Positions 55,720 to 59,102 of a stretch of DNA of 64,000 nucleotides are shown piece after piece. The notes beneath the pieces were generated by a model. That model was not told where the DNA came from. It searched no databases and saw only the letters and a list, made by a program, of their open reading frames with translations. The translations under genes were made by a program, and so were the position numbers. The stretch covers positions 1,426,001 through 1,490,000 of the forward strand of contig NC_014934.1 in NCBI RefSeq assembly GCF_000186265.1, written 5' to 3'. Positions within the stretch are counted from its first letter, which is position 1; each line of letters opens with the position of its first letter. This DNA comes from Cellulophaga algicola DSM 14237 (GTDB lineage: Bacteria; Bacteroidota; Bacteroidia; Flavobacteriales; Flavobacteriaceae).

Positions 55720-57618
55720 ATGAGTGATGCCATTAAACACGAATGCGGAATTTCTTTAATACGTTTATTAAAACCGCTAGAATATTATCAAGAGAAGTAC
55801 GGTACTGCTTTTTACGGCCTAAATAAGATGTACCTTATGATGGAGAAGCAGCACAATCGTGGTCAAGACGGTGCTGGTTTTGCAAGTATTAAATTAGATA
55901 TGGATGCTGGCGAACGCTATATGAGTAGAGTACGCTCCATTGCACAGCAACCTATTCAAGATATTTTTGCCCAAATAAATGACAGAGTAAATACGGCTAT
56001 TAAAGAAAATCCGGAGTATGAAAACAATGTTGCACTTCAAAAAAAACATATCCCATATATTGGTGAAGTTTTATTAGGGCACGTTCGTTATGGTACTTTT
56101 GGAAAAAACAGTATTGAAAGTGTACATCCTTTTTTGAGACAAAATAACTGGATGCATCGTAATCTTATTGTTGCTGGGAATTTTAACATGACCAATGTTG
56201 ACGAGCTCTTTGATAATTTGATTCAAATAGGGCAACACCCTAAAGAGATGGCAGACACGGTTACCGTTATGGAAAAAATCGGACATTTTTTGGATGATGC
56301 TGTTGCCAAACTTTACAAACAAATAAAAAAAGAAGGCTTTAATAAACAAGAAGCTTCCCCGTTAATCGCAGAACGTTTGAATGTTGCAAAAATTCTACGT
56401 AGAGCAGCTAAAAATTGGGATGGTGGTTATGCTATGGCTGGCTTATTAGGTCATGGTGATGCCTTTGTATTACGTGACCCTGCAGGGATTAGACCTGCTT
56501 ATTACTACCAAGATGACGAAGTAGTCGTAGTCGCATCAGAAAGGCCGGCAATACAGACGGTATTTAATGTTCAATTTGAAGATATAAAAGAATTAGACCC
56601 TGGACATGCAATTCTTGTAAAAAAGAATGGAAAAACAATTATTAAAGAAATCTTAGCACCTACAGAACGTAAGGCATGTTCTTTTGAACGTATCTACTTC
56701 TCAAGAGGAAGCGATAAAGAAATTTATCAAGAACGTAAAGAATTAGGAAAACTTATATTCCCTCAAATACTAAAGTGTATTGATGAAGATATAAAAAACA
56801 CCGTATTCTCATACATTCCCAATACTGCAGAAACCTCATTTTACGGAATGGTAAAAGAGGCTCAAAATTACATGAACAAAAAGAAAGAAGAACAAATTCT
56901 TTCCATAGGTTCAAAAATCACGAAAGAGGAACTACATGAAATTTTAGATGTTCGTCCTCGAATTGAAAAAGTAGCTATTAAAGATGCCAAACTTAGAACA
57001 TTCATAGCACAAGATAGTGGCAGAGATGACTTGGTTGCTCATGTATATGATATCTCATATGGTTCTGTGAAAAAAGGAGATAACCTTGTTATTATAGATG
57101 ATAGTATTGTACGTGGAACTACACTAAAGAAAAGTATCTTAAAAATATTAGACAGGCTACACCCCAAGAAAATTGTTGTAGTTTCTTCTGCTCCACAAAT
57201 TAGATACCCAGACTGCTATGGTATTGATATGGCAAAACTAGAAGATTTTATTGCATTTAGAGCGGCTTTAGAATTACATAAAGATAGAAACACCATGCAT
57301 ATTGTTGATGATATCTATCAAAAATGCCTTTCGCAAGTAAATTCTAACGACAAAGATGTTATCAATTTTGTAAAAGAGTTTTACCTGCCTTTTACAGCTA
57401 CAGAAATTTCAAATAAGATTGGAGAATTATTAAGTTCTTCTGAGATTAAGGCTGAAGTTCAAATTATATATCAGACAATATCTAATTTGCATCAAGCTTG
57501 CCCTGATAACTTAGGAGATTGGTATTTTACAGGAGAATACCCAACTCCAGGAGGTAATAGAGTTGTAAATAGAGCATATATTAATTTTTACGAAGGAAAA
57601 AACGAACGCGCATATTAA
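55720..57618 (+). CDS. PurF-like amidophosphoribosyltransferase, long form
   Basis: A 632-aa protein combining a class II glutamine amidotransferase with a type I phosphoribosyltransferase. Cys9 after H-E is the expected N-terminal nucleophile once an 8-residue propeptide is removed. Glutaminase elements are H-N-R-G-Q-D-G-A-G-F and G-H-V-R-Y-G-T-F-G, and the PRPP loop is V-I-I-D-D-S-I-V-R-G-T-T (about 462-473). It is over 100 aa longer than ordinary PurF (about 500 aa), with extra sequence in the amidotransferase half and the C-terminus, and reads A-G-N-F-N where PurF usually has H-N-G. It makes phosphoribosylamine in purine synthesis or is a specialised paralogue. Confidence 0.85.
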   Translation: MSDAIKHECGISLIRLLKPLEYYQEKYGTAFYGLNKMYLMMEKQHNRGQDGAGFASIKLDMDAGERYMSRVRSIAQQPIQDIFAQINDRVNTAIKENPEYENNVALQKKHIPYIGEVLLGHVRYGTFGKNSIESVHPFLRQNNWMHRNLIVAGNFNMTNVDELFDNLIQIGQHPKEMADTVTVMEKIGHFLDDAVAKLYKQIKKEGFNKQEASPLIAERLNVAKILRRAAKNWDGGYAMAGLLGHGDAFVLRDPAGIRPAYYYQDDEVVVVASERPAIQTVFNVQFEDIKELDPGHAILVKKNGKTIIKEILAPTERKACSFERIYFSRGSDKEIYQERKELGKLIFPQILKCIDEDIKNTVFSYIPNTAETSFYGMVKEAQNYMNKKKEEQILSIGSKITKEELHEILDVRPRIEKVAIKDAKLRTFIAQDSGRDDLVAHVYDISYGSVKKGDNLVIIDDSIVRGTTLKKSILKILDRLHPKKIVVVSSAPQIRYPDCYGIDMAKLEDFIAFRAALELHKDRNTMHIVDDIYQKCLSQVNSNDKDVINFVKEFYLPFTATEISNKIGELLSSSEIKAEVQIIYQTISNLHQACPDNLGDWYFTGEYPTPGGNRVVNRAYINFYEGKNERAY

Positions 57619-57626
57619 CACATAAG

Positions 57627-57664
57627 TATCGATGAAATACACCAAATAGTGCATTTCATCGATA
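57627..57664 (+). terminator. Hairpin after the PurF-like gene
   Basis: Strong stem TATCGATGAAAT (57627-57638) with ATTTCATCGATA (57653-57664), plus an inner CAC/GTG. It is not followed by a T tract, so it is a 3'-end or processing signal rather than a classical terminator. It ends 61 nt before the first small-RNA copy. Confidence 0.55.
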
Positions 57665-57725
57665 ATATTAACCGATTAACGTAAAATTAGTCCTTTCAGC
57701 GAGTGGCAACTGTAATTTTAGATTG

Positions 57726-57795
57726 CCATAGCATAAGTAGGTTAAGTTTATGGTAAGATTTGGGGAAAAAGGTGGAGTCTAACTCCGCCTTTTTT
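57726..57795 (+). ncRNA. Tandem small RNA copy 1
   Basis: First of four 70-nt units in one intergenic region. The core begins CCATAGCATAAGTAGG exactly where transcription should start: the -7 box TAATTTTA (57713-57720) ends 5 nt before it. Core bases 1-5 can pair with 24-28 (CCATA/TATGG). A terminator hairpin follows at 57771-57789, GGTGGAGT with ACTCCGCC and a 3-nt loop, then six T. There is no open frame of note. It shares 39 core bases with the other copies, differing only at position 24. Family identity is unknown to me; comparison with Rfam small-RNA motifs of Flavobacteria is needed. Confidence 0.82.
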
Positions 57796-57939
57796 ATTTA
57801 AATACTTTTCCTATCCCACAACAATATATCTCGGTCATCTAAAGTGCCGCTACTCCTAATATTACCTTTCAACTTTTATAATCGAATGTTCATCTAATAC
57901 TTTCGTGAACAACGGCATACTTAACATACCTTTAGAGAA

Positions 57940-58009
57940 CCATAGCATAAGTAGGTTAAGTTCATGGTAAGATTTGGGGAAAAAAGGTGGGGTCTAACTC
58001 CACCTTTTT
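57940..58009 (+). ncRNA. Tandem small RNA copy 2
   Basis: Second unit, 214 bp after the first. The -7 box TACCTTTA (57927-57934) is at the same distance from the core. Core base 24 is C, so the closing stem becomes ACCAT/ATGGT. The terminator stem at 57986-58004 is GGTGGGGT with ACTCCACC and the same 3-nt loop, then five T. A box GTTCATCTAA occurs 52 bp before the core (57888-57897), as in copy 3. The spacer to copy 1 shows no similarity outside these elements. Confidence 0.82.
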
Positions 58010-58144
58010 ATTTTTACACTTTTTTTACCTCAAAAAAATGCAAGAAACACTTCTAAAAAGTTAAAAAGCGCATTTCAACTTAGATTAACGGCGTTCATCT
58101 AAAAATTTCTTTAAAATATACTATCTAAACCTACTTTTGTAGGA

Positions 58145-58214
58145 CCATAGCATAAGTAGGTTAAGTTCATGGTAAGATTTGGGGGAAAAAGGCGGAATAA
58201 TATTCCGCCTTTTT
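58145..58214 (+). ncRNA. Tandem small RNA copy 3
   Basis: Third unit, 205 bp after copy 2, with the best promoter: -7 box TACTTTTG (58132-58139) and a TTT -33 element 19 nt upstream of it. The core is identical to copy 2. The terminator stem at 58191-58209 is GGCGGAAT with ATTCCGCC, a fully paired 8-bp stem that differs from copies 1 and 2 by compensatory changes, then five T. GTTCATCTAA lies 52 bp before the core (58093-58102). A short minus-strand open frame across this copy is a shadow. Confidence 0.83.
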
Positions 58215-58348
58215 CATTTCTGATACTCAGCACTTTACCCCATAAAATAGCATTTAATCGATTCTTTTTCACAAAATTTATAGCTTCTACCCTATAAAAT
58301 ATCAATATATCTTTTGATATTTCTCACAATACCAGTAACTTAGCATTG

Positions 58349-58418
58349 CCATAGCATAAGTAGGTTAAGTTTATGGTAAGATTTGGGATGAAAAGGATGG
58401 AGACTTCTCCATCCTTTT
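58349..58418 (+). ncRNA. Tandem small RNA copy 4
   Basis: Fourth unit, 204 bp after copy 3. The -7 box TAACTTAG (58336-58343) is weaker, but a TTG (58314-58316) sits at the ideal 19-nt spacing. The core matches copy 1 with T at position 24. The terminator stem at 58395-58414 is GGATGGAG with CTCCATCC and a 4-nt loop, then TTTTCTGTTTTT. The stem has shifted in sequence at several paired positions while keeping 8 bp. It ends 76 nt before the convergent sodA stop. Confidence 0.82.
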
Positions 58419-58493
58419 CTGTTTTTATAAACCAAAAAACCCAGCAGAATTAACTAGTGGGCTTTGTACTAAGAAAAAAATTCTTATTTTCTA

Positions 58494-59102
58494 CTACTTG
58501 TTTGCTGCATATAATTCAGAAACCTTATTCCAATTAATAACATTAAAAAATGCATTAATATAGTCAGGTCTTCTATTCTGATAGTTTAAATAGTAAGCAT
58601 GTTCCCATACATCTAATCCTAAAACTGGAAAACCACCACAACCTACACCAGGCATTAATGGGTTATCTTGATTTGGAGTAGAACAAATTTCTACCTTACC
58701 ACCTTTATGCACACATAACCAAGCCCAACCAGATCCAAATCTAGTTGCTGCCGCTTTAGAAAAAGCATCTTTAAAAGCTTCTAATGAACCATAAGCTGCA
58801 TCTATAGCAGTAGCTAATTCTCCTGTTGGCTTACCACCACCATCTGGAGACATTACTTCCCAAAAAAGAGAATGATTATAAAAACCACCACCATTATTTC
58901 TTACAGCTGCATTACTCATGTCTAAAGTATCAAGAATAGTTTCAATAGATTTGCTCTCTAAATCTGTTCCTGCAATTGCATTATTTAAATTCGTTGTATA
59001 TCCATTGTGATGTTTCGTATGGTGAATTTCCATAGTTCTAGCATCAATATTTGGTTCTAGTGCATCATATGCATATGGTAATTTTGGTAAATCAAAGGCC
59101 AT
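58494..59102 (-). CDS. sodA: Superoxide dismutase (Fe/Mn type)
   Basis: A 202-aa cytoplasmic enzyme converting superoxide to peroxide and oxygen. Metal ligands are His27 in M-E-I-H-H, a second histidine in the N-H-S-L-F-W region near 77, and the aspartate and histidine in L-D-V-W-E-H-A-Y near 163-170. Metal choice (Fe or Mn) cannot be settled by eye. It is convergent with the small-RNA array and divergent from the AddA-like gene. Confidence 0.95.

Follow-up and report, generated by a model that had tools for sequence, protein, structure and literature searches.

A conserved four-copy array of candidate sibling small RNAs in Cellulophaga algicola, with the gldL leader as its probable target

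Small RNAs (sRNAs) that occur in many copies per genome have been described in Bacteroides, where FopS (RF04319) comprises 14 paralogues whose lengths cluster at ~65 and ~70 nt (PMC11697453). Nine FopS members are intergenic, four are antisense and one derives from a 3′ untranslated region; they have a common 5′ pairing region and their own promoters, repress by pairing near the start codons of mostly susC-type targets, and have as partner RbpB, a protein with an RNA recognition motif (RRM) (PMC11697453). For flavobacteria, the published promoter consensus is TAnnTTTG, with the box at −12 to −5 (PMC9723704), and the text of one study covers both gldL and sRNAs (PMC5395568). Here we consider a 64,000-nucleotide stretch of Cellulophaga algicola DSM 14237 (contig NC_014934.1, positions 1,426,001 to 1,490,000; the window), in which four tandem sRNA candidates lie between a PurF-like gene and a sodA-like gene. 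Their comparison across relatives suggests an undescribed family of sibling sRNAs, similar in type to families already known, with gldL as the gene that it probably represses.

The array and its conservation

An earlier reading made from the DNA letters of the window (the sequence-only reading) had described four units of exactly 70 nt, whose 39-nt cores differ at position 24 only. This is borne out by four exact matches of the core in the window, compared with 0 in 100 shuffles, and by the length of every unit, which is 70 nt if counted from the first base of the core to the last T of the terminal run. Position 24, the sole variable one, reads T, C, C and T in copies 1 to 4, and with up to three mismatches allowed the core is present in those four copies only in the whole 4.89-Mb genome. 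The spacers had been called unrelated, which holds within Cellulophaga algicola and fails in part of the family, where copies in the same place have their own conserved upstream words.

The copies had also been thought to be independently promoted, and each is preceded by a −7-type box (Table 1), a reading that rests on sequence. Across relatives, 348 of 442 copies have the −7 box 5 nt ahead of the core, and 360 of 431 have TA..TT at −13. Because the published box lies at −12 to −5, this spacing would put the transcription start at the first base of the core, plus or minus one; each unit would then be transcribed from its own housekeeping-type promoter, starting at the core or within a base of it. 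A built-in promoter scan, whose consensus is of the E. coli type, yielded 3 sites, compared with 4.0 in shuffles; the boxes given here were read against the flavobacterial consensus.

The four copies share one fold, in which a weak 5′ hairpin, with CCAU and AUGG closing a GUAGG loop, is followed by the single-stranded linker GUAAGAUUUGGG and then by a strong terminator hairpin. Folding of the complete units is better than that of their shuffles (z −2.8 to −4.2), whereas the two versions of the core alone fold no better than theirs. A terminator-like fold recurs in 429 of 441 copies. When 94 distinct copies were aligned by fitting them to the model, double-sided changes were found at 12 of the 13 pairs of the terminator helix and at none of the 10 pairs of the 5′ hairpin. 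In this alignment, the terminator is conserved as a structure and the core as a sequence.

Translation of the core's sole ATG frame gives MVRFG for 256 of 440 copies and MVDLG for 179, the difference between lineages being due to a one-A indel in the linker, which has either one A or two. Since the frame is thus broken between lineages, there is no conserved peptide, in keeping with the earlier claim that none is encoded. Taken together, a 5′ hairpin free of compensatory change and an unconserved ATG frame point to an RNA that acts by base pairing.

A search of family genomes with a covariance model built from the four copies, which the sequence-only reading had proposed, gave matches in 96 of the 120 genomes sampled (Cellulophaga algicola included; 85 of the 100 good ones). 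With a wider model, 43 of 246 genomes in a sample of the order were matched, 33 within the family and ten outside it at 31.3–38.6 bits; the phylum sample gave 32 of 296, with 26 in the family and six outside it at 32.6–37.7 bits. Judged by bit scores alone, the matches outside the family are weak. Zobellia, Maribacter, Cellulophaga, Eudoraea, Winogradskyella, Formosa, Aquimarina and Salegentibacter are carriers among the matches listed, and genus g121, probably Flavobacterium to judge by its weight in the sample, has mostly a variant with T at core position 10. The collection comprises 442 copies in 194 loci, some of them one genome counted by two routes, with 1 to 6 copies per locus and a single copy in 59 loci.

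Predicted pairing with the gldL leader

Comparison across genomes points to the gldL leader as the best-supported, and probable, target; the gene encodes the motor protein of gliding and type IX secretion. It was picked up through 12 nt of exact complementarity with the sRNA's loop region, and in a search for loop complements before an ATG it recurred in three genomes, two of which have another site that is complete or nearly so. TIGR03513 served to identify GldL, and start codons are our own calls.

Pairing was tested against shuffled cores, at P ≤ 0.05. With one composite core it was significant in 21 of the 30 gldL leaders that resemble the query most (the first group) and in 16 of 24 other leaders from RNA-bearing genomes, compared with 4 of 15 from RNA-lacking relatives (one further such genome gave no start). 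In g121 it was significant in 19 of 22 leaders, and in other families in 1 of 6. With the start codon and the first 6 nt of the RNA removed, significance was retained in 7/14, 19/30 and 13/22 leaders of this genome's type, the first group and g121, versus 3/15 from RNA-lacking relatives and 0/6 from other families. This trimmed test and the co-variation tests below omit ten of the 24 leaders (L396–L401 and L418–L421), whose leader type differs from that of this genome; five of nine omitted leaders pair at P ≤ 0.05 when tested with their own cores. Leaders of the genes neighbouring the array, at most the first 70 per gene, were significant in 3 of 70 cases for PfkB, 5 of 70 for PurF-like, 1 of 70 for SodA and 2 of 30 for UvrD-like genes. 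Within Cellulophaga algicola, gldL ranks 3rd by z and 8th by energy among 989 leaders (988 sampled, with gldL added by hand). It ranks first of 351 in genome G059 and 187th of 360 in G025, which lacks the RNA.

In two lineages, the RNA and the leader also appear to have changed together. A word resembling CCAAAT-CTTA, which matches the two-A linker, is present in 10 of the 14 leaders of this genome's type, and five have CCAAATCTT; six of 22 g121 leaders have CCAAATCTA, which matches the one-A linker. Two-A cores pair better in 13 of the 14 former leaders and one-A cores in 18 of the 22 latter. With ties counted, 49 of 66 leaders paired best with the core of their own lineage (11/14 of this genome's type, 17/30 in the first group and 21/22 in g121), compared with a mean of 25.0 and a maximum of 39 under label shuffles, which ignore kinship.

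We postulate that the RNA, with its weak 5′ hairpin and strong terminator hairpin, acts in trans through base pairing. The linker (GATTTGG), the loop region (TAGGTTAA) and the 5′ end (CCATAR) would pair antiparallel with blocks of the gldL leader, the last of them over the start codon, and this pairing would block initiation of gldL translation and turn the motor down. Repression was chosen as the sign of regulation, by analogy, because the predicted pairing covers the start codon, as is reported for FopS in the available text (PMC11697453). With a common targeting core under different promoters, several signals may perhaps feed one output. The array, its conservation, the copy classes, the terminator covariation and the synteny are established from sequence, and the gldL pairing has comparative support only; transcription, repression, the signals and any helper protein are what we infer.

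That these are sibling sRNAs acting in trans, with the gldL leader as best-supported target and a pairing that turns the motor down, is the reading towards which we lean, at somewhat better than an even chance. A fuller proposal, which we put forward tentatively and at slightly worse than even chances, is that this Flavobacteriaceae array, fixed between the purF-like gene and sodA, controls the gliding and type IX motor post-transcriptionally; its promoters would report different signals, its core would pair in three blocks over the gldL start, RNA and leader would have co-varied in two lineages or more, and SprB-type adhesins might be co-regulated.

Genomic setting and copy classes

Of 195 loci, 174 have the PurF-like gene upstream, encoded on the strand of the array, and 157 have SodA downstream on the opposite strand; a UvrD-like gene stands beyond SodA in 120 and a PfkB gene before the PurF-like gene in 92. 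The loci span 1–8 kb, so many end before these neighbours, and where a neighbour is present it is always on the same side and strand, no other arrangement having been counted among the 195. Such fixed neighbours speak against the mobile or attachment element that the sequence-only reading had named as a possible objection; no search was aimed at transposition footprints. At least seven loci are without any of these neighbours, and the orphan copies there have their own box and terminator (Table 1). Beside sodA in genomes free of matches, no diverged array was seen, and nothing scored above 23.2 bits among 24 genomes scanned, 23 of which had a SodA match; these were 22 match-less family members, including 18 of the 24 match-less genomes in the 120-genome sample, and two from other families. 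Directly after the PurF-like gene, a 16–17 bp inverted repeat (57627–57664) is possibly that gene's terminator.

In part of the family, the copies fall into classes by place. The class with T24 and GGGA[CT]G holds 64 of the 442 copies, 61 of them last in their array and three the only copy in their locus. GGGGA copies are in the middle in 91 of 101 cases and have their own upstream words, and first copies have GGGGC in 125 of 135 arrays; in many other arrays, outside the part of the family to which this scheme applies, all copies have GGGGC. Among the four copies of the window, the fourth conforms to the last class and the second and third occupy middle places, whereas the first, with GGGGA and T24, is unusual for its place. 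The element CACAATACCAG, kept upstream of the last-class boxes, may be an operator for one signal or, possibly, a special promoter element. Separately, locus L083 (G259) has five near-identical tandem copies ~242 nt apart, with a variant 5′ part, which looks like a recent amplification, and L065 and L074 of g121 have diverging extra copies in which the loop word is intact and the linker largely so.

Table 1. Coordinates of the array, its predicted promoter elements, its neighbours and related loci.
Feature	Position	Strand	Basis or remark
PurF-like gene, conserved upstream neighbour	55720..57618	+	TIGR01134 match below its cut-off
−7 box of copy 1, TAATTTTA	57713..57720	+	5 nt before core; spacing statistics; consensus TAnnTTTG (PMC9723704)
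sRNA copy 1 (first position)	57726..57795	+	core 57726–57764; T24; terminator hairpin 57765–57795
−7 box of copy 2, TACCTTTA	57927..57934	+	sequence and spacing statistics
sRNA copy 2 (middle position)	57940..58009	+	C24; GGGGA after core; terminator hairpin 57981–58009
−7 box of copy 3, TACTTTTG	58132..58139	+	exact fit to TAnnTTTG
sRNA copy 3 (middle position)	58145..58214	+	C24; GGGGG after core; terminator hairpin 58185–58215
CACAATACCAG, kept across genera just upstream of last-class −7 boxes	58325..58335	+	ATACCAG upstream in 58/64 last-class copies
−7 box of copy 4, TAACTTAG	58336..58343	+	sequence and spacing statistics
sRNA copy 4 (last class)	58349..58418	+	T24; GGGATG at core end; terminator hairpin 58390–58419
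Superoxide dismutase gene (sodA-like), conserved downstream neighbour	58494..59102	-	on the opposite strand in 157/195 loci
147-aa protein	G000:C1:4181256	minus	also L305, L345; L345 form without Pfam match
Orphan loci L008, L041, L086, L094, L114, L137, L195			own promoter box and terminator each; L041 and L086 have common downstream neighbours

Alternative readings and described systems

The claim of a multicopy trans-acting sRNA family, made by the sequence-only reading, finds support in the promoter boxes, the covarying terminators, the invariant 5′ core, the lack of a conserved peptide and neighbours fixed in many genera. As to gldL, several results weigh against it. Twenty of 76 leaders from RNA-bearing genomes miss P ≤ 0.05, and four of the ten omitted leaders reach it with the composite core. 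First-group leaders have no preference between one-A and two-A cores (17 vs 13), and among eight omitted leaders whose genomes have one RNA type, only two prefer that type. In these comparisons, pairing with gldL is broad and a matched change in RNA and leader is clear in two lineages only; related genomes, moreover, are not independent, so the counts overstate events. The gldM leaders, an intended control, were significant in 15 of 29 cases in the first group (L352–L381) and in 1 of 22 in g121. Across 199 genomes, a loop complement just before an ATG gave 66 rows versus 60 for the reversed control, totals that were summed by hand, include the sRNA itself in 7 of the 66 and, as counts alone, carry no meaning. 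A two-block pattern gave 311 matches versus 769 for its control in 119 genomes, being the rarer in 93 of them, and seed complements in leaders genome-wide were, in most tests, not enriched over permuted seeds, with RNA-lacking G025 behaving alike.

Other searches of this kind gave mixed results. An exact 10-nt seed had four matches outside the array in its own genome versus 14 for the reversed control. CCAAA lies upstream of the loop site in 8 of 25 sites at starts versus 4 of 30 others; two of those four (L311 and L322) precede open frames, and a recount would give 10/27 versus 2/28. An excess of k-mers at translation starts, strong at first, mostly failed against permuted seeds (one ratio test gave 0.04) and was withdrawn; RNA-lacking G025 gave a similar k-mer ratio, and the linker complement is frequent in G059 and G025 alike.

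Perhaps these are base-pairing sibling sRNAs whose main regulon lies elsewhere, for example, by analogy with FopS, among proteins that are exported or sit in the outer membrane; gldL would then be a minor target or match by chance. Two leaders do outrank gldL among the 989 of Cellulophaga algicola, those of a DUF805 protein (G000:C1:80877), at the top, and of a 2863-aa protein that combines SprB repeats with a type IX sorting domain. In three genera, Cellulophaga included, the start of a 147-aa protein with no function assigned is directly preceded by a loop complement of 12–14 nt, amid unlike flanks, and many genes found by exact loop complements begin like signal peptides, judged by eye and without background comparison. 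Against this stand the cross-lineage support for gldL, found for this one leader among those examined, and the same lack of genome-wide seed enrichment that counts against gldL, and we regard a main regulon elsewhere as unlikely.

Similarly unlikely, in our view, is that a DNA operator or the general composition of leaders, rather than RNA pairing, underlies the complementarity at gldL. The first-group site continues into a palindrome, TACTTAAGTA, linker and loop words are also frequent in the leaders of RNA-lacking G025, and the match of one-A and two-A forms fails outside two lineages. The gldM leaders of the first group score too, which may mean either a second target there or an effect of leader composition. 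Against this reading, the leaders of other genes in RNA-bearing genomes average a z near 0, and three groups with different gldL leader sequences all pair above shuffles.

Could the core instead be fixed by the binding of a regulator, the RNA being a protein-binding molecule or sponge whose copy number sets the titration? The near-invariance of the core, paired positions included, and the redundancy of the copies would suit such a role, which we nonetheless find improbable, as a protein site does not explain core changes matched in the gldL leader in two lineages. Nor does the Cellulophaga algicola genome have an RRM_1 protein, RRM_1 being the family of RNA-binding proteins that the search covered. 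Finally, a repeat, attachment site, other DNA element or short coding gene, which near-identical tandem cores and the orphan copies of some relatives might suggest, is scarcely credible beside the conserved neighbours, covarying terminators, conserved promoter boxes and a start-codon frame broken between lineages.

If sibling sRNAs directed at gldL are indeed what the array encodes, it would represent a near-invariant, family-wide regulatory RNA in a large marine and soil group for which few sRNA targets are known, and would offer a handle on the switching of gliding and type IX secretion. Copies under different promoters would also provide a natural system for asking why bacteria retain redundant sibling sRNAs, and the predicted pairing makes direct tests possible.

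The family had been called possibly undescribed, and within the open papers searched this stands. A check against Rfam 15, also proposed earlier, gave no match at the gathering threshold in the window or in eight loci of relatives, and all matches in the window at E up to 10 lay far under threshold, many of them on terminators. The core sequence was absent from the open-access texts searched, a scope that lies outside subscription papers and supplements. The flavobacterial sRNAs of two studies (PMC9723704, PMC5395568) were compared by description only, and one of the other Rfp RNAs or of the Flavobacterium columnare candidates may be the array RNA. Rfp18 of Flavobacterium psychrophilum is likewise conserved among flavobacteria, with mRNAs as its presumed targets, and is described as pairing via a third stem-loop (PMC9723704); the array RNA has two hairpins in each of its four copies. 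The candidate sRNAs of Flavobacterium columnare, likened by description only, are also flavobacterial and, per their authors, without Rfam matches (PMC5395568).

Among multicopy families, the array resembles FopS, as far as the latter's available description goes, in its Bacteroidota host, in RNAs of ~70 nt in several copies, in a common 5′ core and in a predicted promoter for each copy. The covariance model of FopS, however, has 0 matches in the Cellulophaga algicola genome (in the window it scores 17.1 bits, compared with a cut-off of 56), and PF00076 has none there either, the control being found in Bacteroides ihuae. The identification of the array as FopS was rejected on these covariance-model and partner-protein tests. 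The Qrr RNAs have hosts and helpers that differ from those here, and their only Rfam match was a 15-bit, cut-off one on the other strand. With Qrr and other sibling sRNAs the array has in common that related sRNAs occur more than once per genome (PMC4211561, in the part available). In Listeria, a different phylum, the LhrC family, a multicopy sRNA that the title of its paper presents as a regulator of a surface adhesin, may be likened to the array by description only (PMC4132741).
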